IMG/VR virus record: IMGVR_UViG_3300002933_000024
Location: 1-40,295 of that record
Length of the DNA stretch: 40,295 nt
Source of the DNA: a virus
Reading direction: 5' to 3' (one strand)
The position numbers and the translations under genes were made by a program. The number at the start of each line of letters is the position of its first letter. Position 1 is the stretch's first letter. This document shows, piece by piece, positions 4,717-32,546 of this stretch. The notes under the pieces were generated by a model that ran no database searches, was not told where the DNA came from, and worked only from the letters and a program-made list of their open reading frames with translations.

Positions 4717-7700
4717 TCATCTTCTTCTAAAAGGATTAACAACGGAATTGAGATTTGATCTCTGTAATATACCAAGCTGTCTTTCATGTGATTTTAGTTC
4801 CGCCATAGAACTAATATTAGGATCAAACCCCAAAGACATAAGACCATGATTTCGGGCCAGTCTAGCAGGGTCTATGCCACTTAAGATATCTGCAAATTCT
4901 CTAGCCCCTTCGTTCATAGCCCATTGTTGAGCAACCCAGGAAGCAAGAGCCACAGCATCGGCCTGATCATCATGAGCATCTTTTTCTGCTGGGGCCTGAA
5001 CTTTTATTTGATATTTTCCAACATAATGAGCTTCTACCAATTTCATTTCATCAATAAACTTCTTCTCTGCTGGAAATGATGCTTTTTTCTGTTCCATCAA
5101 TCCTTTAAGGGTTAAATACATCTGAGAATTTATACCGGAAGTTAAATGAACTAATTCTAACCCATTGATTCCATATTTCTCCAATAATTGAACGAGCATA
5201 GAACCACCATGTTGATCAGTTGCCCCTTTAAAACAAGGTAGGAGTCCGTTCATGCGTTTTAACCATAGTAAGATATCGTCCAATGGTAATTGTTTAACAT
5301 TTGAATACTCTTCTTCTCCTACTATTTTTCTATCTATAAAATCATATACTAAAGTAGCTCCAGGAATCAAATCGAAAGTAGGTTGCCAATGACAAACAGC
5401 TAAAGCAGTTCCGTCATATTGCATACCTAAATCCAACCCCCAAAAATATTTTACTCCTATAGTTTCCGGAGTAAACTGACAGAAATTTTTTCTTTCTTGA
5501 TCAATACAGGATTCAAACACAGATAGTTTGACATAAGATTCCGCCGCTTCTAGGAATTCTCCACCATATTCAGCCTTGAACACATCGGGATTCTCTCTAT
5601 GTTCTTTTTTTAAGAAATCTACATCAGAACGAGGATTCATCTCTGCCGTAGAGCATCGAAAAGCTAGAATGTCAGAATCATTCCCCATTTTCATAGCGGA
5701 ACTGTAAAGTTCATAGTACTTACCTATCTTACCGTTAGGAGAAGTAATAATGAGAATCATGGATTCTCGTTTCCCCCCTCTAGTCCCTCCAGCCTTAAAC
5801 TGCATGGTGGCGGGGGCAGCGGCTTTATAAATGGCTTCAGAGTTAACTCCAATTTGATTTCTATAGAAAGCGAACTCGTCTAATGCCAATAAGAATGAAC
5901 TAGGGCCACGAACTTTGTTAGTGGTGCAATTGTGAACCACTGCAAATTTAGTTAAGAAAGAATGGGTATCCTCTACTTCAATATCAACAACAGGATGTTT
6001 ATTTTCAATAGGAGTGATAGCCGTTATCTTTGACCAATAGTAGTTTACTCCCTTAACTTTTTGAAAAAATCTACAATGGTTATCTTGTTTACAAATTTCT
6101 ACATACCAGGAATCCTTATGAATTACTTCTTTTTGTTTATATTTAGTTATATAGCCTGGGCGAAACAGAATTGACGGTCGTTGTCCAGTCTGAATTAATA
6201 AATTGAAGAGAGAATAAGCTAGTTTTTTTGATACTGTTGGAGCAATTCTCCTATTATCACACCCATCTCCTTCATAATACCCTTGGATCAACGCTTTTTG
6301 TAATTCGATGGGCCAATAGAGAGCTTCATTGGGAACAACTTTATTTTCGCATCCTTCTCCAAACCAGAAGGCCAGCCCTCTTGCTAATTCTGATGAGGAG
6401 CAGAATACATCACATCTATTACACTCAGGAGTTAAGATTAACGTGCTGTTCAGTCCAAATTCCGTTTGAAGAGTTTGTTGAATAAACGCAGCATAAGTGG
6501 TTTGCTCATTTATATGGAAGGTCCACTTAACTGAATTTTTAAATTTTCCTACTTTCCCCATAGTTGAGCCTTCAGCTATGTATAACCCATATAATCGGCA
6601 TGAATCAACTGTCACAGGTAGTTCAACAGAGCTACATCTAACTGAAGTATGTTCACAAAGCTTCCCTCCTAAATGTTTTTGAAAATAGGCTGGTGACTTT
6701 GCTTGAGTATTGTCAAGTGAAGAGGCCACTCTTTGATTCAAAGAAATTTGGGGATATAGAAAATAGTCCCCCTCAGCTAATTTGCTGGCATAATCCTCTG
6801 TTAGTGTGATATCTATACCCTTAGTATCATCTCGTTTGCTATTATTCAAGCAATCTTTAAGCCCTTTTCCAGCGAGATTCCATTTGTATAAATATGGAAG
6901 TTTTTCAAAAGCCTCTTTGTTAGATACTGAAATACAAGTGTGTTGAGGGGTTAAAAGAAGGGGGTCACCCTTAAAATTACGAGTAGAAACTGCCAATAGG
7001 CTTTCTTCATTGTAAGTTTTGTTCAAAACTTTTTTCAAATTTCCATTCATGTCCCACACTAAATCCCCTATTTGTGTGTCCTTAATTGGGGTTAGTCCTT
7101 TAGAAGTCCATATTAATTCATTCTCTTCTAAACAAGGCAAGCTGGCAACGGTAATTGAAGGAGTGATATCTCTTTTATATCGGTCAGCATCAGAAACGAA
7201 AGTCATTTCCTCTGTGGTCATATTTTTTAAATAGGGAGCAAAGAAAGGGGCACGGTTAACGTCTTCCTTCATTTTATCAAATAAACGAGAGGAGCCTTCT
7301 GTGTCCTGGGCCATAAAAGTAAAATCTATGGGAGATCCAGGAATCAAACCATAATGGTCCTGAGGGGAACGAATATTCAAAAGACGATAAAGCTTATAGG
7401 ATGCAATTGCCGAAACTAGGGCGCTATTATGTGTTACATTGAAATTATCTCCGAATAGAAACAAGCCATCTGGGCTATCAACGGTTATACATCGAACTTC
7501 TTGCTCTTTTTCTGGCTCTACAGATACGATGAACCTTCTGTTTTGACAAGGTTTTGAAGTAGTCTGAAGTTCAGCCAATTTTCTTGTTAATCTAAATACC
7601 GGCTTAGTAGAAGTCCAGGTAACTCTGTAACATGTTCCACAATCTTTTCCGTAATAAGTTGCTCTTTTTTCATTCCAATAAGGCTTAAGACCAAGAGAGG

Positions 7701-8907
7701 CGGCTAAATAGAAAACGCCCCTTGCTATATTTTCATTAGTATTATTAAACTCACATCGACTTCTATGGCACCCCCCATCTGTGTCCATCAATCCTTGGAG
7801 TAAGGCTAATCGCTGATCAATGGAGGATATCAAGTAAATTTCTGGAATGTGTTTATTCTTTAAGATTCCCATTTCTCTGAATTTAGACAGAAGGATATTT
7901 CTATCAGGGCTGTTTCCCCATTCTCCTTTTTTAGAGCCGTGCTGTTTAGAAGTTAAAGAGTATTCAGAGGCTTTAGAACCATTAGAGTTAATTGTAACCT
8001 CTAATCCATATGATTCAGCTATTTTATAAATGTAGTTCTTAATCTCTTCATCCATAGTAGTTATGGATACATTGGCACTATGTCCATCCCCAAGCCAAAG
8101 TCCCAAAAAATAAGGATCTAATGGGAGTAGCTGGGAGTTGAACTCAACTGGGTTAGAAAGTGCTATAGAGTGATTTGTTTCTTGTTTTCCATCAGACCTT
8201 GAATAAAATAAAGAGTCTTTTATCTCTAAAGTAGTTTTAACGGATCCTATAGAGTCCTCTTTGCACATAGAGGGCCTTGGACCATTTTTGGGCCATCTTC
8301 TAGCGTTATTCTTTCTTTCAGTACGAGTCATAGTATGCCATAAGTGGCCCCCATGGCATACTACGGAAGTTTTATCATCAAAAGTTACTCGGTAAGTTTT
8401 ATCCACAAAAGGTTGATGTGCTTGTATCACCTTTATAGCTTTACCACTTGGACTGAAAACAGAATCTCCTTCTTTCAAATCTTCAATATTTTTAAATCCA
8501 TGAGGCGTAGGAATAGGTGTCCTGAAGGCGAGAGCTTTTCCCCCTCTTCTCCCAACAATAGCAACAGTTTCATTATAACCGTCAGGGGAGGCATCTTGCC
8601 AAGAGGTTAAATTTATACGTCCTTGATCATGGACATATTTAATATATTCTGTTTCTTTCAAATTATATAGTAGTTCATCACAAAAAATGTCATATACTGG
8701 AACAAGCTTCTCGTCTTTATCCATAGGAATGCCAAATATCAGTTTTATAAGCACTCTTTGTACTGGATATAATTGAATACCAAGCCCCTGTGGAGATTCA
8801 ATAAACTCCAAGGCGTCCATTATATTAGTAGAGTCTGTAATGTGGTCCTGAATTAAACCACTAAATAAAGACTCCCTAGCGTCTTTACTAAACTTCTTTT
8901 TTGGCAT
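4717..8907 (-). CDS. terL: Terminase large subunit with two inteins
   Basis: 1396 residues before splicing, 624 after removal of two inteins, which is normal for a large terminase. The protein is the ATP-driven DNA packaging motor and nuclease that docks on the portal. The N-extein ends at Lys124 in GRRGGK and continues after intein 1 with Ser495, rebuilding a Walker A GRRGGKS. The Walker B motif FLLALDEF lies at about 1004-1012, with Asp1010 and catalytic Glu1011. LIITSPNG at about 1052-1059 looks like the coupling motif. The RNase H-like nuclease domain shows Asp1159 (GLDLG), Asp1231 (ATDQHGG) and the DDQAD motif ending at Asp1317. The ATG overlaps the portal stop by one base (TAATG), indicating translational coupling. 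Without splicing the P-loop is split, so the unspliced form should be inactive. Confidence 0.95.
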   Translation of the reverse strand: MPKKKFSKDARESLFSGLIQDHITDSTNIMDALEFIESPQGLGIQLYPVQRVLIKLIFGIPMDKDEKLVPVYDIFCDELLYNLKETEYIKYVHDQGRINLTSWQDASPDGYNETVAIVGRRGGKALAFRTPIPTPHGFKNIEDLKEGDSVFSPSGKAIKVIQAHQPFVDKTYRVTFDDKTSVVCHGGHLWHTMTRTERKNNARRWPKNGPRPSMCKEDSIGSVKTTLEIKDSLFYSRSDGKQETNHSIALSNPVEFNSQLLPLDPYFLGLWLGDGHSANVSITTMDEEIKNYIYKIAESYGLEVTINSNGSKASEYSLTSKQHGSKKGEWGNSPDRNILLSKFREMGILKNKHIPEIYLISSIDQRLALLQGLMDTDGGCHRSRCEFNNTNENIARGVFYLAASLGLKPYWNEKRATYYGKDCGTCYRVTWTSTKPVFRLTRKLAELQTTSKPCQNRRFIVSVEPEKEQEVRCITVDSPDGLFLFGDNFNVTHNSALVSAIASYKLYRLLNIRSPQDHYGLIPGSPIDFTFMAQDTEGSSRLFDKMKEDVNRAPFFAPYLKNMTTEEMTFVSDADRYKRDITPSITVASLPCLEENELIWTSKGLTPIKDTQIGDLVWDMNGNLKKVLNKTYNEESLLAVSTRNFKGDPLLLTPQHTCISVSNKEAFEKLPYLYKWNLAGKGLKDCLNNSKRDDTKGIDITLTEDYASKLAEGDYFLYPQISLNQRVASSLDNTQAKSPAYFQKHLGGKLCEHTSVRCSSVELPVTVDSCRLYGLYIAEGSTMGKVGKFKNSVKWTFHINEQTTYAAFIQQTLQTEFGLNSTLILTPECNRCDVFCSSSELARGLAFWFGEGCENKVVPNEALYWPIELQKALIQGYYEGDGCDNRRIAPTVSKKLAYSLFNLLIQTGQRPSILFRPGYITKYKQKEVIHKDSWYVEICKQDNHCRFFQKVKGVNYYWSKITAITPIENKHPVVDIEVEDTHSFLTKFAVVHNCTTNKVRGPSSFLLALDEFAFYRNQIGVNSEAIYKAAAPATMQFKAGGTRGGKRESMILIITSPNGKIGKYYELYSSAMKMGNDSDILAFRCSTAEMNPRSDVDFLKKEHRENPDVFKAEYGGEFLEAAESYVKLSVFESCIDQERKNFCQFTPETIGVKYFWGLDLGMQYDGTALAVCHWQPTFDLIPGATLVYDFIDRKIVGEEEYSNVKQLPLDDILLWLKRMNGLLPCFKGATDQHGGSMLVQLLEKYGINGLELVHLTSGINSQMYLTLKGLMEQKKASFPAEKKFIDEMKLVEAHYVGKYQIKVQAPAEKDAHDDQADAVALASWVAQQWAMNEGAREFADILSGIDPARLARNHGLMSLGFDPNISSMAELKSHERQLGILQRSNLNSVVNPFRRR
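5929..7134 (-). mobile_element. TerL intein 2, class 1, LAGLIDADG
   Basis: Residues 592-993 of the terminase precursor (402 residues). It starts CLEENELIWTSKG, has a block B TPQH near residue 653, and ends FAVVHN followed by Cys994 of the C-extein, so Cys1, His-Asn and +1 Cys are all present, as in standard class 1 inteins. Two LAGLIDADG-type motifs are visible: LYGLYIAEG (about 772-780) and LIQGYYEGDG (about 873-882), typical of a DOD homing endonuclease. The insertion lies 10 to 12 residues before Walker B (joined extein SLP-CTTNKVRGPSSF). Both splice junctions fall on codon boundaries that I checked in the DNA. Confidence 0.9.
7426..8535 (-). mobile_element. TerL intein 1 in Walker A, class 3 type
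   Basis: Residues 125-494 of the precursor (370 residues), inserted between Lys and Ser of the P-loop. The first residue is Ala (ALAFRTPIPTPHGFKNIEDL), so the usual Cys1/Ser1 nucleophile is missing. Instead the triplet that defines class 3 inteins is present: Trp190 in block B (GGHLWHT), Cys473 in block F (VRCITVDSPDGLF) and Thr492 just before the C-terminal His-Asn (VTHN), followed by Ser495. The homing endonuclease motifs are LGLWLGDG (about 268-275) and LLQGLMDTDG (about 369-378). In class 3 splicing the block F Cys starts the reaction; that is known chemistry applied here by inference. Confidence 0.9.
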
Positions 8908-11192: not shown

Positions 11193-11596
11193 AATTTTTC
11201 TTTTTCAGCTTGAGAGAGAACGTTATTCCTTTTTTCATTTTCCATTTTCTTTATAAGTTTTTGATAATTCTTCTCAGCTTTTATAAGTTCTTTATCCTGT
11301 TCATTGAGATCCGAAATAGATTCACGTAATTGGGAAGAAGTTACTTGTTGAACCATAGCCGAGGCCATAGATAATTTCTGAAGGGTGAGTTTATCTTTTG
11401 CTATCTTTTCTAAAATTTCATTAGAGAAATCCATTTCGAGACAATCTGTATAGTGAGCATCAAGAAGAGAAAGTTTATGAAGAAATGCGGTAAGAATTCT
11501 TTGAGACTCCCCTAATAATTGAATTTTTTTAGTAGTGGCAGCTAATATTCTGCCTAAATGAACATGGTTCTTATCCCTAGAAATAATAACTGTCAT
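11183..11596 (-). CDS. Hypothetical helical protein between pol and portal
   Basis: 137 residues, starting with an ATGA overlap (4 bases) on the end of the DNA polymerase gene, so translation is probably coupled. It is almost wholly helical, with a C-terminal charged coiled coil (residues about 90-135: ISDLNEQDKELIKAEKNYQK and on). No family motif is visible. Its place directly before the portal and terminase genes allows the guess of a small packaging or assembly factor, but nothing in the residues proves this. Confidence 0.5.
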   Translation of the reverse strand: MTVIISRDKNHVHLGRILAATTKKIQLLGESQRILTAFLHKLSLLDAHYTDCLEMDFSNEILEKIAKDKLTLQKLSMASAMVQQVTSSQLRESISDLNEQDKELIKAEKNYQKLIKKMENEKRNNVLSQAEKEKLTS

Positions 11597-14500
11597 TGAA
11601 TATACTCCGGGGGAATTTTACTCACATTAGCAAGCTTCATGATAGTTCCTTGATAGTCAAAAACCACTGTAGCGGAGCCAATCCCTAGCTTCTCAATAAA
11701 AACAGAAAGTTCTCTTTCAGTAAGTGATTTAATTTTTGGAATTATGGCTGGAATCGGAGCTAAAATAGCTTTCTTGGGGGATTCATAAAATAAATCGTCC
11801 TCCCCTAAAGACTCTTCTTCAGCTTTTTTTACCTCAACTTCAATTTTTACCTCTTTTTCTCTAAATTTCTCTTCAATTTTATTATCAATTTGATCATAGG
11901 TAGCCACGATTGACCACTCAGGATTAGATGAAGGAGGTTCCACTTCTACATGGTCAGGATTTTCCATTGTAGGCTTGGGTTTAATAGCGATTTCCTTATG
12001 TTCAGGAAGTTCAAATCTGTTCCTGTCAGCATATTCCTTAACAGACTCTTCTAATGCTCCTGCTTCATCCTCATCGATCCTCCAGAATTCATCAAGCTGG
12101 AACATCGTAACAATATGTCGCCTCATAAGCTCTTCGGTTTTAGCTTTCTCAATAGATGAGAGGATACTATGTGTCCTAGAGTGAGTGTTTACCTTCAACC
12201 AACCCGTAACTTTCTCAATTTTTTCGGCCAAAAGTGAAGAAACTAGCTTATTAACTAAATTCTCGTCAAAATCTTGAGGAATATAAGTTTGCATACCTGG
12301 TACATCGTACCATCCAGAGGCTTCGTGGTCTTTATCACCAGTCAAATGGTAGTCAATATCCCAAGTTTGACCATACTCGCAATCAGTTTCAAGAGGAACT
12401 TTCCATTCTTTAGCTGTGTGTAACTGACGTAATTTCATAAAACGGTTCAAACGAGGAACGATGTAAGGAGCAAACTCATTCTTGACAGAGAAGTCAATTT
12501 CGTCATGCACTGTGCAATGAAGTTTAAAAACATCCTCTACACCTGGGGTATTTGTGGCCCAAATACGAATTTTATTCAAAGCAGAGCGCATTAAATCACC
12601 AGCGGTTCCTTGAAGTGGAATATTAATGGAGACACGCTCTGCCTTACCCAAGAAACGAGTATACTCTCCATAATTTTTAACGCCGGATTCAGGATTACTG
12701 TATAAAGCATTAGCGGCTCTTTCAGCGGCCAAAGCCTCATCTTTCATATCTTGTTTTTTGTAAACTTCCACAGAACGCTTCAATTCTCTATATTTATAAT
12801 AGTACTCTTTGTGTTCCGGCTTAGGTATGGAAATTTTATAGTGCTTCATGGCCGAATGAAAACCAATAATTCGGCCTGTGGGAGTCTTACACATCAATTT
12901 AGTTCTAGCAGTATTACGTTTACCTTCGCACCATGCGGCAAAGACCGGAACAGACTCCCAATATTTGTTGACTAGAGTTTGTGCCTCTTCAAAAGTGATT
13001 TCATGACCATCTTTTACCATATTTTCAAAGATAGTGTATGCGGTTCCACCATAAAGGAGGGCAAAGTTAATAATTTTAGATAACGATCTAAGTTGTTTTT
13101 TCCTACCTTTGCTTGTGTTAGGATCAGAAAATTCAGGAAACAAAGCTCTAGCAGTAAGAGAGTGGAAATCCCCTTCCCCGTTTAAAAATTCATCCAAAAA
13201 TAGTGGTTCTCCTGAAACATTAGCTGCCACGCGCATTTCAACGTTGCAGTTGTGACTGAGCATTCCCTCAGCGATAAAAGTATGAGTTGAAGTCTGAAGT
13301 GCTATTACTTCTTGTTTTCCAACTGGGGTAATAGATAAAATAGTAGCGGCTACCCCGGTTTTACTTTGATATGTTTGTCCTTCCCAAATCTTTTTTGCAT
13401 TTTTAATAATTCTTTCAGGACGAATTTTCCCTAAAAACTTAAAGGTTTCAATCCTTCCACCATTAAATCTTAAAGTATCTACTTTACAACTTTTTGGTCT
13501 GTCCCTTACAACATTATACCCCTTAGATAGAAGTAATGATTCTACTTTATCTAAGACCAAACCTGGATTTTGACCAAATCCCACTGTCTGACCACTAACC
13601 CAGCCTTCACCATCAAATACACCACTAAGATAACCTGCCTCCCAAGACTTATCTTCTTCCCAGACATCACAAAAATAGGCTATCTTCATTCCACTTTTCA
13701 ATTGATCCGCTTGTCTCCAATCATAAAGTCCGCGAAGTCTGTTTGATCTGGGGCCACCACCTCTCACTTTAGCTAACCAACTATGATCAATGGAGCATAT
13801 CACAGTCCCTTTATCTGTTTTTATCTCTAAACAATCTTTTACTACAATCTTTTTTTTCTCAATAACAGTAGTTCTAAGCCTTCTTCTCCCTTTTTTATTA
13901 AGTTCTTTTGGAGGAAGATATTCATCAAAACCAACTAGTTCATCACCTTCTTGCAAGTCTCTAATCGTAACCCATCGTAAATCAGGAGTTAAAAGACGAG
14001 TAGAGGGAGCTAAACAATAATCCGTTGTAAAATAAGTCCATCCTGGTTCAGCAATAAAAAGACCACGAAGATTGATAACTTCATTTACATCCACCTTTGT
14101 CTTATTACCCTGACAAACATTACAGGAAGGAACTAGGCAATAACGCTTACCAAAGTAAGTTCCAAAGTGATTTCCTTCAATATTTGGAGCTTTATTACCA
14201 TCTTTAAAGCAAGAAGGGTCTAAATCAATCTCATTAAACTGAGGTTCATCTCCGGTTACCTCTTGACTAGTCAAAAGTTTCCCTTTAACCCACCAATTCC
14301 CACCAACCTTCTTAATAGCCTGAGGATTAAGACCACAGCCACCGTCTTTTTCAAATTCACCACCAGCAGCGGCTAAACGACCACCAGCAACTACGTTTTG
14401 TTTAAAATAAATACGAGCGGTGTGGTCCCTTGGTTCATATTTCAAATTTTCAGGATGAAGGGCTGCATATTCTCTGAAAGCAAGCAACTTATCAAGGAAT

Positions 14501-15678
14501 TCGTCTTCTGGATACTGTTTTTTAAGCTCCGTAAGTACCCCGATGGCCGTAGAAGCCTCTTGAGTTTTCTCTGAAAATTCTACTGGGGTCATTCCTCTCT
14601 TATTAAAAAGAACTTCACGAAGCTGGGGAGTAGACCCTGGATTAAAATTCTCAATTCCTGATAAAGCCGCTAATTCCTCAGTCAACTTATTCAGTTTACT
14701 CTTATGGAATGAGATGGTATCGTTAAGCCTCTCTACATCCACTGTGACACGCTGACGCTCAATCCAGGTCAAGGTATCCACTAACAAATGGTCAAGCCTG
14801 TGAACAGCCTTCATAGCTCTGGCCTTGTCCTTTATGAGATACCACAAGAGCCAAGTGGTAATAGCATCACCAGCAGCATACCAAAGAGCAATATAGGTAG
14901 GAACCCAAGTAAAGGGGGCCAAAACGGTCTTTTGTGTGTTTTTTTGAAGCTCCTCATTCCAAACGGAAGCCTTCACTTTAGCAATTTGACTCAATTCAAT
15001 CTGTTCAAAACCCAATCTAGCCTTAGTTAAAGCCTTCAAACCACCAATTTGAAGGCCACCAGACCCACTGGTATCAACCGAAGCCTTGGGGTCTTCAAGA
15101 TAGTTCAAAATTTGAACATCTTCAAAGTAGGGAAAGTCCCTGAAAACAATGCCGAGAGTAATTCTTAAAACTTCTCTATCATATTTGGCGTTAAAAAAGA
15201 TTAAATGGCTTTGATCAAACAGATTTTGAAGAATACGCCTCAAATCTTCTGCCGGAATATTATTTCCATCCTCATGATTGACCGAAATGTATAATCCTTC
15301 AATACCATCAGCCGATAGGCAAATACCAGCCAATTTAATATTAGCTTCATTATTAACAACTCTAGTATCTAGGCCATCAGTCTCAGTATCTACAGCTATT
15401 ACAGGACAAGTATGGTCTTCAAAAGAATGATGCCTAGAAGTATCTTCAAGAACCGCAATAGCCCAGGCTTCTAGTTCAGATGCTGTAGTAATTAGTCTAA
15501 AACTCTTCTGAGCCATCCATGGTTGCTTGATAGATTCCAAATCTAACACAGCAATATGTTCATTAAAGATAGTCCTCAGGTCCTTTTTAACCTTTGGAGT
15601 CTTTGTAACTTTTGGCTTTTTGGCTTTTTTGACTACTATTGACAAATTTTCTGAAACTACTTCTTCATCTTCTGACAC
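11593..15678 (-). CDS. polA: DNA polymerase family A with intein in motif A
   Basis: 1361 residues, 1105 after removal of one intein. The N-terminal 3'-5' exonuclease domain has Exo I DTETDG (Asp97, Glu99), Exo II FFNAKYD (Asn163, Asp167) and Exo III YAAGD (Tyr267, Asp271). The polymerase domain has motif A TDYCNVEMR, rebuilt across the intein (Asp553, Tyr554, then Cys811), the O-helix motif B with Arg864, Lys868, Phe872 and Tyr876-Gly877, and motif C HDE at 1058-1060. Before motif A is a cysteine knuckle (Cys514, Cys519, Cys522) not usual in PolA. A lysine-rich N-terminus and an acidic C-terminal extension of about 200 residues make it longer than bacterial Pol I. It replicates or repairs phage DNA. 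It overlaps the primase-type gene by 14 bases and the next gene by 4. Confidence 0.93.
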   Translation of the reverse strand: MSEDEEVVSENLSIVVKKAKKPKVTKTPKVKKDLRTIFNEHIAVLDLESIKQPWMAQKSFRLITTASELEAWAIAVLEDTSRHHSFEDHTCPVIAVDTETDGLDTRVVNNEANIKLAGICLSADGIEGLYISVNHEDGNNIPAEDLRRILQNLFDQSHLIFFNAKYDREVLRITLGIVFRDFPYFEDVQILNYLEDPKASVDTSGSGGLQIGGLKALTKARLGFEQIELSQIAKVKASVWNEELQKNTQKTVLAPFTWVPTYIALWYAAGDAITTWLLWYLIKDKARAMKAVHRLDHLLVDTLTWIERQRVTVDVERLNDTISFHKSKLNKLTEELAALSGIENFNPGSTPQLREVLFNKRGMTPVEFSEKTQEASTAIGVLTELKKQYPEDEFLDKLLAFREYAALHPENLKYEPRDHTARIYFKQNVVAGGRLAAAGGEFEKDGGCGLNPQAIKKVGGNWWVKGKLLTSQEVTGDEPQFNEIDLDPSCFKDGNKAPNIEGNHFGTYFGKRYCLVPSCNVCQGNKTKVDVNEVINLRGLFIAEPGWTYFTTDYCLAPSTRLLTPDLRWVTIRDLQEGDELVGFDEYLPPKELNKKGRRRLRTTVIEKKKIVVKDCLEIKTDKGTVICSIDHSWLAKVRGGGPRSNRLRGLYDWRQADQLKSGMKIAYFCDVWEEDKSWEAGYLSGVFDGEGWVSGQTVGFGQNPGLVLDKVESLLLSKGYNVVRDRPKSCKVDTLRFNGGRIETFKFLGKIRPERIIKNAKKIWEGQTYQSKTGVAATILSITPVGKQEVIALQTSTHTFIAEGMLSHNCNVEMRVAANVSGEPLFLDEFLNGEGDFHSLTARALFPEFSDPNTSKGRKKQLRSLSKIINFALLYGGTAYTIFENMVKDGHEITFEEAQTLVNKYWESVPVFAAWCEGKRNTARTKLMCKTPTGRIIGFHSAMKHYKISIPKPEHKEYYYKYRELKRSVEVYKKQDMKDEALAAERAANALYSNPESGVKNYGEYTRFLGKAERVSINIPLQGTAGDLMRSALNKIRIWATNTPGVEDVFKLHCTVHDEIDFSVKNEFAPYIVPRLNRFMKLRQLHTAKEWKVPLETDCEYGQTWDIDYHLTGDKDHEASGWYDVPGMQTYIPQDFDENLVNKLVSSLLAEKIEKVTGWLKVNTHSRTHSILSSIEKAKTEELMRRHIVTMFQLDEFWRIDEDEAGALEESVKEYADRNRFELPEHKEIAIKPKPTMENPDHVEVEPPSSNPEWSIVATYDQIDNKIEEKFREKEVKIEVEVKKAEEESLGEDDLFYESPKKAILAPIPAIIPKIKSLTERELSVFIEKLGIGSATVVFDYQGTIMKLANVSKIPPEYIQ
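13249..14016 (-). mobile_element. DNA polymerase intein, short, class 1
   Basis: Residues 555-810 of the polymerase precursor (256 residues). It starts CLAPSTRLLTPDLRWVTI with Cys1, has a block B-like CSIDHSW (about 628-634), and ends MLSHN followed by Cys811. It sits inside polymerase motif A, between the DY of the catalytic aspartate motif and CNVEMR. Only one clear LAGLIDADG-type motif is visible (YLSGVFDGEGW, about 683-693), so the endonuclease is either a single-motif type or reduced. Splice junctions were checked at codon level (TGT at 14014-14016, AAC at 13249-13251 in sense). Confidence 0.9.
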
Positions 15679-28413: not shown

Positions 28414-31188
28414 GTGAACCTGAATGAAGAGCAAAAATTGGCAGTTGAACATCCTTTAGACCATCCTGCGGTAGTCATGGCTGGGGCAGGAAGTGGCAAA
28501 ACAACCGTATTAACTCAACGATTGGCTTGGCTTATGGATGTTAAGGAGCAGAATCCTAAGAAACTTCTGGCCTTAACCTTTACAAATAAGGCGGCAAGAG
28601 AGCTAGTAGACCGTTTAAGTCTACGAGAGGAGCATGAAAGACCAAGAGTAACAACTATTCATAGTCTTGCTCTCTCTGCTATTCGTAGAAATCCTGTGGG
28701 GTTTGGGCTTAGTGAAAAAATTACTCCAATTGATGATTATAATCAGAAGCAAATCATAAAAAAGGTCATTGAGGAACAAAATTTAGTTGAAGAAGTCAAG
28801 GAATGGGATCTATTAGAGAAGATAGGATACCACAGGGCGCGAGGCATTGGTTTCAAGGTGGACTACACCAAAGAAGTCCATGAGAAGGCTCTGGTGGCCT
28901 ATGGGGGGCAAAGAGCGATATCCTCAGATGAACTCTCCGTGTGGGCAGGTTATGAGAAGTACAAACAGAAAATAAGCGTGGTTGATTTTGATGATATGCT
29001 TCATCTTGTCACCAGAAGAGGGAGAGAAGATGAAAAATGGCGTAATAATCTTCAAAAAATGTTCCATCATGTGCTTATGGATGAGAGTCAGGACACATCT
29101 GTAGTCCAGTGGGAGCTAATTAATCTATTGATTGGACCTACAAATAAGAATCTTTATTGCGTAGGAGATTTGAGTCAATGTCAACCCCCAGGAACAAAGA
29201 TAAAAGTAGTCACTAATCCAACTTTCAATGGACATAGGGGGGGGAATGGAAAAGCAAGAGCAATAGTAGTTAAAAAAAATATAGAAGATTTAACTAACCA
29301 GGATAAGGTTATCAGTTGGAATAAACATGATCAGATATCTTATAGTGCAGGAAAGAGCATAGAAGTTGGTAAACGATACTACTCTGGCCCATTATATTCT
29401 ATTTGTACAGATGAAGGGGTAACTAAATGCACCCCTAATCATTGGAATTGGGTTCGCTTTAATAAAAATTCTCATGGAAAATACGCCGTTTATCTAATGT
29501 GGCGACCAGATATGGGATTCAGAATCGGATTAACAGTGTTTAAAAGAAGCACAGGAGTAAGTGGTAGAGGTTCTTATGGATTAACCTCAAGAATGGTTCA
29601 AGAAAAGGCTGAAAGAGGTTGGATTCTTCGTATTTGTGAAACTAGACAAGAAGCAGAAGCGTGGGAAGAAGCATATTCCGTTAAATTCGGTATCCCAGAA
29701 TCTGTTTTTGAATGTGGGCCTTGCAGAAACAAAACACAAGAACAGATAAGATTAATATTTTCTCATGCGAACCCCTGTGGAGGTTTAAAATGTCTTGAGG
29801 AGCATGGTCTACTATTTGATTACCCAATTGTTACTTTGGGGCAGGGGGCTTCTTGGCGTGGATGGTTTAAAACTGCCACAGCTAATATTTTTCCAGTTAT
29901 TATGGATATTCCATTAGAAGGAAGAAATAAATCTACCCCTATTGTCGGAAAGACGGTAGAACATTACGAGGGATTAGTGTATTCCCTTGAAGTAGAAGAT
30001 TACCACACTTACATAGCTGATGGGTTAGTGGTGGGTAACTCTATTTACAGCTTCAATGGGAGTTCTCCTGAACTTCTTTATAATTATACAAAAGAATGGC
30101 GTGGAATTGTCCCAACTCTTTACAAGTTGGAAAAGAACCATCGCTCTGTCCCTGAAGTTGTAGCTTTAGCTAACAAAACTCAACGATTAATGACTGAGGT
30201 GGTTCCAATTCAAATGAAATCATATCGTGGAGAGCAAGGAGAGAAGGGCAATATTCTCTTAAGGGTAGCTGGAACACCTAAAGAGATTGCCTACTCCATG
30301 TCTGAAGATATTTTACGAAGGCATGAGGATGAGGAAGAATCTTTTAAGGATACAGCCATCTTAGTTCGTGCTGGATCTCAAGTCCGAGATATTGAAACTG
30401 AACTGGTCAGGAATCGTATTCCTTATATAGTTCGTGGGGCTATGGGATTGATGCAGACTGAAGAAGTTAAGGATATGTTGTCCTATATGCGTATTATGGT
30501 CAATCCAAAGGACTATTTTGCCATGCTCCGTTCCATTGCTATCCCCAAAAGAGGAGTAGGTGATGCTGTTCTAGAAAAAGTAAAGAAGAAAGCTGATGAG
30601 GAATTTGATGGAAATCTTCTAAGGGCGGCTATGGTTGGAAATCCTATTAAATTTGGCATGTATTTGAGTCTAGTTGATTCTCTCCTATGTGCGAAGGACG
30701 ATCCGATTACGGTTCTTAATCTCATTATTAAAATGACTGGTTATGAAAAGATCCTCAAGACCAAATACAAAAAAGATCCGGATAAAGTTGAAGTGAAATT
30801 AGCTAATCTTGAAAGATTGAAAGAAGTTATCGTCAATCTGACTACCATGAACCAATTGACTACAGAAGATGTGGTATTTCAATTAACTATGCAGGATCAG
30901 AAAGATGAGGATGATGGAGGAAGGGTCACTATTTCAACTATTCATGCGGCAAAGGGGTTAGAATGGCCTAATGTGTATGTGGCGGGGGTTTACGAGGGAA
31001 GTTTACCTCATAAATTCAGTAGTTCCCCAGAAGAAATTCAAGAGGAAAGGCGAGTTTTTTACGTTGCTTGCACTAGAGCAAAAAATAGATTAATTTTGTG
31101 TGTTCCAGGTATGGTGGAGTATTTTAACAAGGGAAGCGTTTTTGTTTCCCCAAGTCGTTTTCTTTCTGAGATAGGAGTGATGAAATAA
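28414..31188 (+). CDS. UvrD/Rep-type superfamily 1 helicase with intein
   Basis: 924 residues, 637 after removal of an intein; this fits the Rep/PcrA/UvrD group of 3'-5' DNA helicases used in replication and repair. Motifs visible: Walker A AGAGSGKTT (23-31), motif Ia LTFTNKAA (54-61), TIHSL (81-85), motif II LMDESQDT (221-228), motif III VGDLSQ rebuilt with SIYSFNG across the intein (250-255 then 543-549), motif IV with KNHRS, motif V TIHAAKGLEWPNVYV and motif VI YVACTRAKNRL near the C-terminus. The start is GTG with AGGGGGA upstream; no better start is visible. It is on the plus strand, divergent from the virion block. Confidence 0.95.
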   Translation: MNLNEEQKLAVEHPLDHPAVVMAGAGSGKTTVLTQRLAWLMDVKEQNPKKLLALTFTNKAARELVDRLSLREEHERPRVTTIHSLALSAIRRNPVGFGLSEKITPIDDYNQKQIIKKVIEEQNLVEEVKEWDLLEKIGYHRARGIGFKVDYTKEVHEKALVAYGGQRAISSDELSVWAGYEKYKQKISVVDFDDMLHLVTRRGREDEKWRNNLQKMFHHVLMDESQDTSVVQWELINLLIGPTNKNLYCVGDLSQCQPPGTKIKVVTNPTFNGHRGGNGKARAIVVKKNIEDLTNQDKVISWNKHDQISYSAGKSIEVGKRYYSGPLYSICTDEGVTKCTPNHWNWVRFNKNSHGKYAVYLMWRPDMGFRIGLTVFKRSTGVSGRGSYGLTSRMVQEKAERGWILRICETRQEAEAWEEAYSVKFGIPESVFECGPCRNKTQEQIRLIFSHANPCGGLKCLEEHGLLFDYPIVTLGQGASWRGWFKTATANIFPVIMDIPLEGRNKSTPIVGKTVEHYEGLVYSLEVEDYHTYIADGLVVGNSIYSFNGSSPELLYNYTKEWRGIVPTLYKLEKNHRSVPEVVALANKTQRLMTEVVPIQMKSYRGEQGEKGNILLRVAGTPKEIAYSMSEDILRRHEDEEESFKDTAILVRAGSQVRDIETELVRNRIPYIVRGAMGLMQTEEVKDMLSYMRIMVNPKDYFAMLRSIAIPKRGVGDAVLEKVKKKADEEFDGNLLRAAMVGNPIKFGMYLSLVDSLLCAKDDPITVLNLIIKMTGYEKILKTKYKKDPDKVEVKLANLERLKEVIVNLTTMNQLTTEDVVFQLTMQDQKDEDDGGRVTISTIHAAKGLEWPNVYVAGVYEGSLPHKFSSSPEEIQEERRVFYVACTRAKNRLILCVPGMVEYFNKGSVFVSPSRFLSEIGVMK
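29179..30039 (+). mobile_element. Helicase intein with GIY-YIG-like domain
   Basis: Residues 256-542 (287 residues), inserted in helicase motif III between VGDLSQ and SIYSF. It starts CQPPGTKIKVV, has block B CTPNHWNW (about 339-346) and block F LVYSLEVEDYHTYIADG (521-537), and ends VVGN with Gly, not His, before the final Asn, followed by Ser543. No LAGLIDADG motif is seen. Residues about 358-425 (VYLMWRPDMGFRIGLT ... RQEAEAWEEAYSVKFGIP) resemble a GIY-YIG nuclease in order: Y, RIG, then a Glu on a helix. The nuclease call is inference; splice sites are clear. Confidence 0.88.
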
Positions 31189-31244: not shown

Positions 31245-32546
31245 ATGGTCTATAGAAAAAATGAGACAAGAAAAAAAGAAATCTATGGAATAACAGGTTT
31301 AAAAGAACATGGGAAAGACACTTTCGCCAATCTAATAGTGGGTAGCGGGAAGGTTGGAACTAGTTTTAGAATAGTTCATTTTGCGGATTCTTTGAAAAAT
31401 TTGGTTATGACGATTTTTAATTTAACAAAAGAGGATGTGTTTACTCTAGAAGGGAAGGAGAGACTATTCTCTATTCCAATAGTTATTGATACCCATCTTG
31501 AAACTTTAAAAAAGGTGACTGGACTTGAAATAACAGCCCATGAAATGATTGCGAGAAACCCGAGAGAACTACTTCAGTATGTTGGATCAGAGTATATACG
31601 AAATGTTGATAGAAACTACTGGCTTAACCAAATCAGACCAGAATTAACAAAAAATAGGAGGCTTTTAATCCCAGATGTGAGATTTCCTAATGAGGCGGAA
31701 ATTATCAGAGAGAATGAAGGCAAAATAATACGAATTATAAGAATTGATAGGGCAGAGAATATTGACACACATTCTTCTGAATTAGAGGGACTAAAAATTG
31801 AGGCAGATTTAGTCTTAGGGGTCAGAACTGGTGATTTATCTCTAGTGGAGAGGGTGGCCTATCTATTAGCTATGGGAAAGTGGGATTCAGCCATGAGATA
31901 TGATTATAGAAGAATTAAAACTGCGTTAGATCTATATCAAAAAGGAGAGCCGCTAATTAAATGTGTGAATGCTATAGGAGTAAAAAACGATGACTCTCAA
32001 GCATTCAGAGTTATTTTAGCCTATTACGGGGTTTCAGTTAGAAGGCCGGGAATTGTGACTAATCCCCATCGCTTTAATGATGGAAAAGAAGAAAAGCAGT
32101 GTAGCACCTGTAAGGAGTGGAAGGATTTGGGCCTATTTAATAAGAATGCAAAATCTTGGGATTTTCATCATTGTTTATGCCAATCCTGTGCATCTCAATA
32201 CCATAAGATACAATATCTCAAATATGAAAAAGAACTGTCCTTCAAGCAAATTTTAAATCAAGCGAGGCAGGGTGCCAGATTTAGAAATTTAAGCTTTAAC
32301 ATTGATGAAGATTACATAAAAAGTATGTGGGAAAATCAAAAAGGATTGTGTTTTTATACCAAAGAGCCAATGGTTTTTACTAAGGGAGAAACTAATAAGG
32401 TATCAATTGATAGATTAAATTCTAACATTGGTTACGAAAAAGATAATCTAGTTCTTTGCGAGGCAAGAGTTAACTTGATGAAAGGAAATTTGACTATTGT
32501 GGAATTTAAAGAATTAATAACTAAAATAAATAATAATTTTTGTTAA
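31245..32546 (+). CDS. dNMP kinase fused to HNH nuclease-like domain
   Basis: 433 residues. Residues 1-210 match phage deoxynucleoside monophosphate kinases (T4 gene 1 type): P-loop GITGLKEHGKDTF (Gly15-Phe27), PRELLQYVGSEYIR, and DVRFPNEAEIIRE, the usual signature near the acceptor site. These kinases make dNDPs for phage DNA synthesis. After a linker with a helical, HTH-like stretch (221-262) comes a metal-binding segment (Cys286, Cys289, Cys312, Cys315) and then an HNH-type core: GLCFYTKEPM, VSIDRLNSNIGYEKDNLVLC and N410-xx-K413, which match the layout of phage HNH homing endonucleases. The two parts are in one frame with no stop. The 3' end overlaps the next gene (opposite strand) by 4 bases. 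Confidence 0.82.
   Translation: MVYRKNETRKKEIYGITGLKEHGKDTFANLIVGSGKVGTSFRIVHFADSLKNLVMTIFNLTKEDVFTLEGKERLFSIPIVIDTHLETLKKVTGLEITAHEMIARNPRELLQYVGSEYIRNVDRNYWLNQIRPELTKNRRLLIPDVRFPNEAEIIRENEGKIIRIIRIDRAENIDTHSSELEGLKIEADLVLGVRTGDLSLVERVAYLLAMGKWDSAMRYDYRRIKTALDLYQKGEPLIKCVNAIGVKNDDSQAFRVILAYYGVSVRRPGIVTNPHRFNDGKEEKQCSTCKEWKDLGLFNKNAKSWDFHHCLCQSCASQYHKIQYLKYEKELSFKQILNQARQGARFRNLSFNIDEDYIKSMWENQKGLCFYTKEPMVFTKGETNKVSIDRLNSNIGYEKDNLVLCEARVNLMKGNLTIVEFKELITKINNNFC

Follow-up and report, generated by a model that had tools for sequence, protein, structure and literature searches.

Class 3 inteins are defined by a Trp, a Cys and a Thr (WCT) at positions B:12, F:4 and G:5, together with a first residue (A:1) that carries no nucleophile (PMC5050341, PMC7891396), and the block B His is the proposed base of a Cys-His-Thr triad (PMC7664689). 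Intein sites in the P-loop of the large terminase subunit (TerL) were described in 2016, and insertion between Lys and Thr is the 'classic' P-loop insertion (PMC5050341). Five mycobacteriophage terminase inteins splice, with TerL1-c and TerL1-e belonging to class 3, and TerL1-b and TerL1-c cut intein-less terL (PMC5050341).

The window analyzed here is a 40,295-nucleotide stretch of viral DNA, positions 1 to 40,295 of IMG/VR record IMGVR_UViG_3300002933_000024. It carries a terL gene whose 1396-aa open reading frame contains no internal stops and displays two inserts (Table 1). The encoded protein shares 45.6% identity over 99% with the annotated TerL of Tunturiibacter phage Tunturi_5. The first insert parts GRRGGK from SALVSAI and ends in Val-Thr-His-Asn, followed by Ser. 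An earlier note on this DNA had described an insert that begins with Ala and splits Walker A between Lys and Ser; its coordinates are exact, residue 125 is Ala, and the flanks are GRRGGK and S. Excision of both inserts leaves joined exteins of 624 residues, in which GRRGGKS, LALDE, D387 and HDDxxDA are all kept. The same note gave 624 residues for the joined protein, a length that is correct but requires removal of the second insert (aa 592-993) as well. Both inserts are missing from a TerL sequence with 75% identity (locus L003) and from the Tunturi_5 TerL (L009, 46%), each of which can be aligned with the joined exteins over its whole length; thus the intein boundaries are exact at the protein level.

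Table 1. Features of the terL precursor gene in the window (residue numbers are those of the precursor unless marked intein)
Feature	Position	Strand	Extent or sequence	Basis
terL precursor gene	4717..8907	(-)	1396 aa, two inteins	open frame; PHROG terminase large subunit matches
N-extein	8536..8907	(-)	aa 1-124, ends GRRGGK (Walker A)	aligns to intein-less TerL L003, L009
Class 3 intein	7426..8535	(-)	370 aa, aa 125-494, Ala1...Thr-His-Asn	
Block B His188 (B:10)	8344..8346	(-)	intein H64	invariant, 81/81; aligned to MchDnaB1 His65
Trp190 (B:12), W of WCT	8338..8340	(-)	intein W66	invariant, 81/81; aligned to 6rix Trp67
First LAGLIDADG motif	8083..8115	(-)	PYFLGLWLGDG, intein 141-151	conserved in alignments
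Second LAGLIDADG motif	7774..7803	(-)	LLQGLMDTDG, intein 245-254	conserved in alignments; Pfam
Cys473 (F:4), class 3 nucleophile	7489..7491	(-)	intein C349	invariant, 81/81; aligned to 6rix Cys124
Thr492 (G:5), T of WCT	7432..7434	(-)	intein T368	invariant, 81/81
Ser+1	7423..7425	(-)	S495, doubles as Walker A Ser	alignment to empty-site TerL
Middle extein	7135..7425	(-)	97 aa	
Second intein, class 1 type	5929..7134	(-)	402 aa, aa 592-993	
C-extein	4717..5928	(-)	Walker B (LALDE) and nuclease domain	

The first insert displays the features of class 3. Residue 1 is Ala125, so that the Cys or Ser nucleophile is absent from that position, and the block B His188, the C-terminal His493-Asn494 and the +1 Ser495 are all present. 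In an alignment of 81 sequences, which consists of the query and 80 IMG/VR homologues, the block B His, the Trp, the block F Cys, the block G Thr and the terminal Asn are invariant (81/81), and the same residues are invariant in 14 phage sequences. Among PDB sequences, the window intein is closest to the class 3 DnaB inteins 6bs8 (M. smegmatis) and 6rix/6riy (M. chimaera). Alignment with 6bs8/6rix runs from residue 1, with block B H/W, block F C and block G THN in register; the assignment of Trp190, Cys473 and Thr492 to the class 3 positions in the earlier note is thereby upheld. Block B of the window intein reads HxxH, whereas most class 3 inteins have DxxH; a His is found there in 3 of the 81 sequences. 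Splicing kinetics could differ for this reason.

A structure prediction, as the earlier note had suggested, gives a confident AlphaFold model of a Hint domain combined with a LAGLIDADG domain (pLDDT 92.7, pTM 0.90). With this model, Foldseek shows a full-length match to PI-SceI, which consists of intein and nuclease (E = 6e-20), and a match to the class 3 MchDnaB1 intein with 0.9 A rmsd over 69 columns. The model and the Foldseek matches thus agree on a Hint fold. Pfam intein models gave no hit above cut-off for the Walker A intein (Hint_2, 14.8 bits versus a cut-off of 28.4), so that Pfam alone would show the nuclease and miss the splicing domain. The predicted nuclease is detected by Hom_end (2.2e-13) and LAGLIDADG_3 (1e-9), and both motifs retain the acidic residue (WLGDG, LMDTDG), in keeping with the description of the nuclease as intact-looking. 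A dN/dS of 0.048 was obtained over the intein of the sister pair L130/L133, which occupies an upstream site and is not the window copy; dS had reached saturation across the nuclease region. Sequence and model together identify the insert as a class 3 intein whose homing nuclease looks intact, and splicing would remove it.

The second intein starts with Cys1, shows a TxxH block B and a block F Asp, and ends in HN followed by Cys+1, shortly before the Walker B sequence LALDE. It carries LAGLIDADG motifs as well (YGLYIAEGS and QGYYEGDG). The second-intein site is filled in locus L141 by a copy with 50% identity and is empty in L003, L004 and L009. Only three phage records match the second intein, and these weakly.

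Inteins are also found in other open reading frames of the window. A family A DNA polymerase open reading frame (11593..15678) contains a 256 aa class 1 type intein at 13249-14016 (-), with the boundaries DY/C...HN/C and a weak LAGLIDADG match. A UvrD/PcrA-like helicase carries a 287 aa intein at 29179-30039 (+), with the boundaries SQ/C...GN/S, where Gly replaces the penultimate His; its middle region resembles a GIY-YIG nuclease by eye, with no Pfam match. The deoxynucleoside monophosphate kinase open reading frame at 31245-32546 (+) has an endonuclease VII-like C-terminal part. In L148 (IMGVR_UViG_3300000553_000005, 108522-109520), a DinG-like helicase displays a P-loop class 1 intein, GIGK/C...VVHN/S, and the contig also bears the identical terL. 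In Acidovorax phage ACF1 (L018, about 460-1512) there is a TerL intein with the full WCT set, yet with Cys as the first residue after the Walker A GK. It is possibly an intermediate between class 1 and class 3.

A search for related TerL sequences gave 38 loci, the majority of which have no intein, and two contigs (L005, L006) bear an intein-containing terL gene identical to that of the window. Among Tunturi_5-like contigs, L128/L129, L130, L135, L137 and L141 carry a class 3 intein in Walker A; L130 and L133 carry one 27 residues farther upstream (R/C), which makes a second site. L141 resembles the window in pairing a class 3 intein at Walker A with a class 1 intein before Walker B. The window intein and the class 3 inteins of the related TerLs, from both sites, form a single clade (support 100/97). 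The extein tree intermixes intein-bearing and intein-free genes, e.g. L130 with two class 3 inteins lies beside L121 with none. A single intein clade set against a mixed extein tree points to a mobile element and not a fixed regulator. Judged at the sequence level, the distribution shows that class 3 inteins are gained or lost between close relatives. The two class 3 inteins of L130 (269-2632), situated 27 residues apart in one terminase, share 45% identity with each other.

Signs of co-conversion were looked for in the same material. Between L130 and L121, mismatches within 45 bp of sites 124 and 221 number 44 against 12.7 expected, and 0.5% of circular shifts are equally high; this is only suggestive, because the enrichment weakens with other counting intervals and site choices and site 221 was added post hoc. 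L141 and L114, also compared for co-conversion, are too far diverged for such a signal to be recognized. Contig L004 (1-240) displays approximately 70-80% identity to the window from -120 to +111 bp around the empty second-intein site, and past +111 bp it is 100% identical over 4.5 to 4.7 kb, with all 66 mismatches situated before that point. The switch, which sits at the contig end, looks like an exchange or co-conversion at the second-intein site, but it could be an assembly join.

The best explanation, with a probability of about 0.95, is that of a mobile class 3 intein with a LAGLIDADG nuclease, inserted between the Walker A Lys and Ser in the TerL of a phage related to Tunturi_5. The absence of a nucleophile at position 1 raises the alternative of a class 2-like or class 1-derived intein, in which Ser+1 attacks the N-terminal junction directly and the WCT residues are there by chance; class 2 inteins likewise have no Cys or Ser at position 1 (PMC7891396). 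Chance is difficult to reconcile with residues that are invariant in all 81 sequences, with the block F Asp changed to Cys and with nearest structures that are class 3. Neither the W nor the C occurs in class 1 relatives with this type of nuclease: in the phage inteins Segz_1 and pYD38-A, which have a similar nuclease, Leu and Gly replace these residues, and both are absent from the P-loop inteins of DinG-like helicases (L146-L148, from this phage and two relatives). On sequence grounds, such class 1 inteins are a useful negative control for WCT. Assignment to class 2 itself was rejected on the presence of WCT and of Cys in place of the block F Asp, and the chance reading is very improbable.

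That the insert is splicing-dead or the gene damaged, leaving a terminase that is non-functional in this genome, might be entertained for a metagenomic virus record such as this one, but it has very little probability given 1396 open codons, conserved splicing residues and nuclease motifs, an extein whose alignment to relatives spans its full length and takes in Walker A, Walker B and the nuclease residues, and the identical gene in two more contigs. A further proposal, by analogy, is that the intein would in addition be a regulatory switch, with redox state or metal acting on Cys473 to delay TerL maturation. In M. smegmatis DnaB, the class 3 P-loop intein (DnaBi1) shows such a response (PMC6195587), and class and position in the window are as in that intein, with the P-loop site and a +1 Ser that is also the Walker A Ser; seven other cysteines are found in the window intein, and C60 is near the active-site block B. 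A redox trap homologous to Cys118-Cys48 of DnaBi1 was rejected, as the partner Cys is not conserved: the alignment places a Thr at the position of Cys48. Furthermore, the responsive DnaBi1 has no nuclease domain whereas the unresponsive DnaBi2 has one (PMC6195587), and patchy presence among close relatives fits a selfish element. A switch is unlikely. An extended version, in which the clade colonized two terL sites 27 residues apart (both filled in L130), the motor needs two mechanistically different inteins and the class 3 intein would slow packaging in response to redox state or metal, is slightly less likely still.

For the mobile class 3 intein, the proposed scheme starts with the 1396-aa TerL precursor as read from the sequence, and its splicing steps are modelled on experimentally studied class 3 inteins (PMC5222942, PMC7664689, PMC6195587). 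With assistance from His188, and kept in place by Trp190 and Thr492, Cys473 would attack the Lys124-Ala125 bond and carry the N-extein as a thioester. Ser+1 would then accept the N-extein, and Asn494 would cyclize, joining the extein halves and restoring GRRGGKS. The class 1 intein would exit through its own Cys1 and Cys+1, resulting in the 624-aa TerL; both inteins have to be out for this enzyme because the class 1 intein precedes Walker B. Packaging is likely to depend on splicing, as the earlier note had reasoned, since Walker A is interrupted. In co-infecting relatives, intein-less terL would be cut at its Walker A codons by the nuclease, and the intein would be copied in during repair; this homing step is supported by the empty sites, the patchy distribution and the conserved nuclease motifs.

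The related genes provide a natural series of terL with no intein, one intein and two inteins, with two neighboring sites and with class 3 beside class 1 inteins. In such a series one could test how inteins home, how they switch sites and what splicing costs a packaging ATPase.

The earlier note had considered such an intein unusual, a view that the phage records do not support. With an E-value limit of 1e-5, 744 of 50,697 phage records contain a relative of the 370-aa insert, the best match reaching 9e-59, and class 3 TerL P-loop inteins are present in many phages. A class 3 intein after the Walker A Lys and before Ser/Thr is found in the TerL of Synechococcus phage B23, mycobacteriophage JeTaime, the T4-like Escherichia phage ELT3 and Gordonia phage YungMoney. 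A residue-by-residue reading places a class 3 TerL intein at, or adjoining, the Walker A K/S or K/T junction in several other phages. With these records and examples, class 3 inteins cannot be called rare at the P-loop of terminases.

The TerL inteins of JeTaime, ELT3, B23 and YungMoney share WCT, the LAGLIDADG nuclease and the split Walker A with the window intein, but the intein identity is approximately 30-34% and they belong to other terminase families and hosts. Those of L128, L130, L135, L137 and L141 are alike in gene family, site and clade and are 47-51% identical; several inteins of the Tunturi_5-like contigs start with Leu or Met, whereas that of the window starts with Ala. M. smegmatis DnaB, similar to the window terL, combines a class 3 P-loop intein and Ser+1 with a class 1 intein, DnaBi2, elsewhere in the ATPase (PMC6195587). 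DnaBi1 differs in its helicase extein, in being a mini-intein without nuclease and in its redox partner Cys48 (6bs8). The TerL of cyanophage Mic1 also has two inteins in one terminase (PMC7156551). For these, insertion into the ATPase domain and the nuclease domain and a Cys at the boundary are described, and the passages concerned make no mention of class 3 (PMC7156551). What is known of class 3 inteins stays unchanged by the window intein, which joins a known kind, since class 3 inteins at TerL P-loops and ATPases with two inteins both have precedents.
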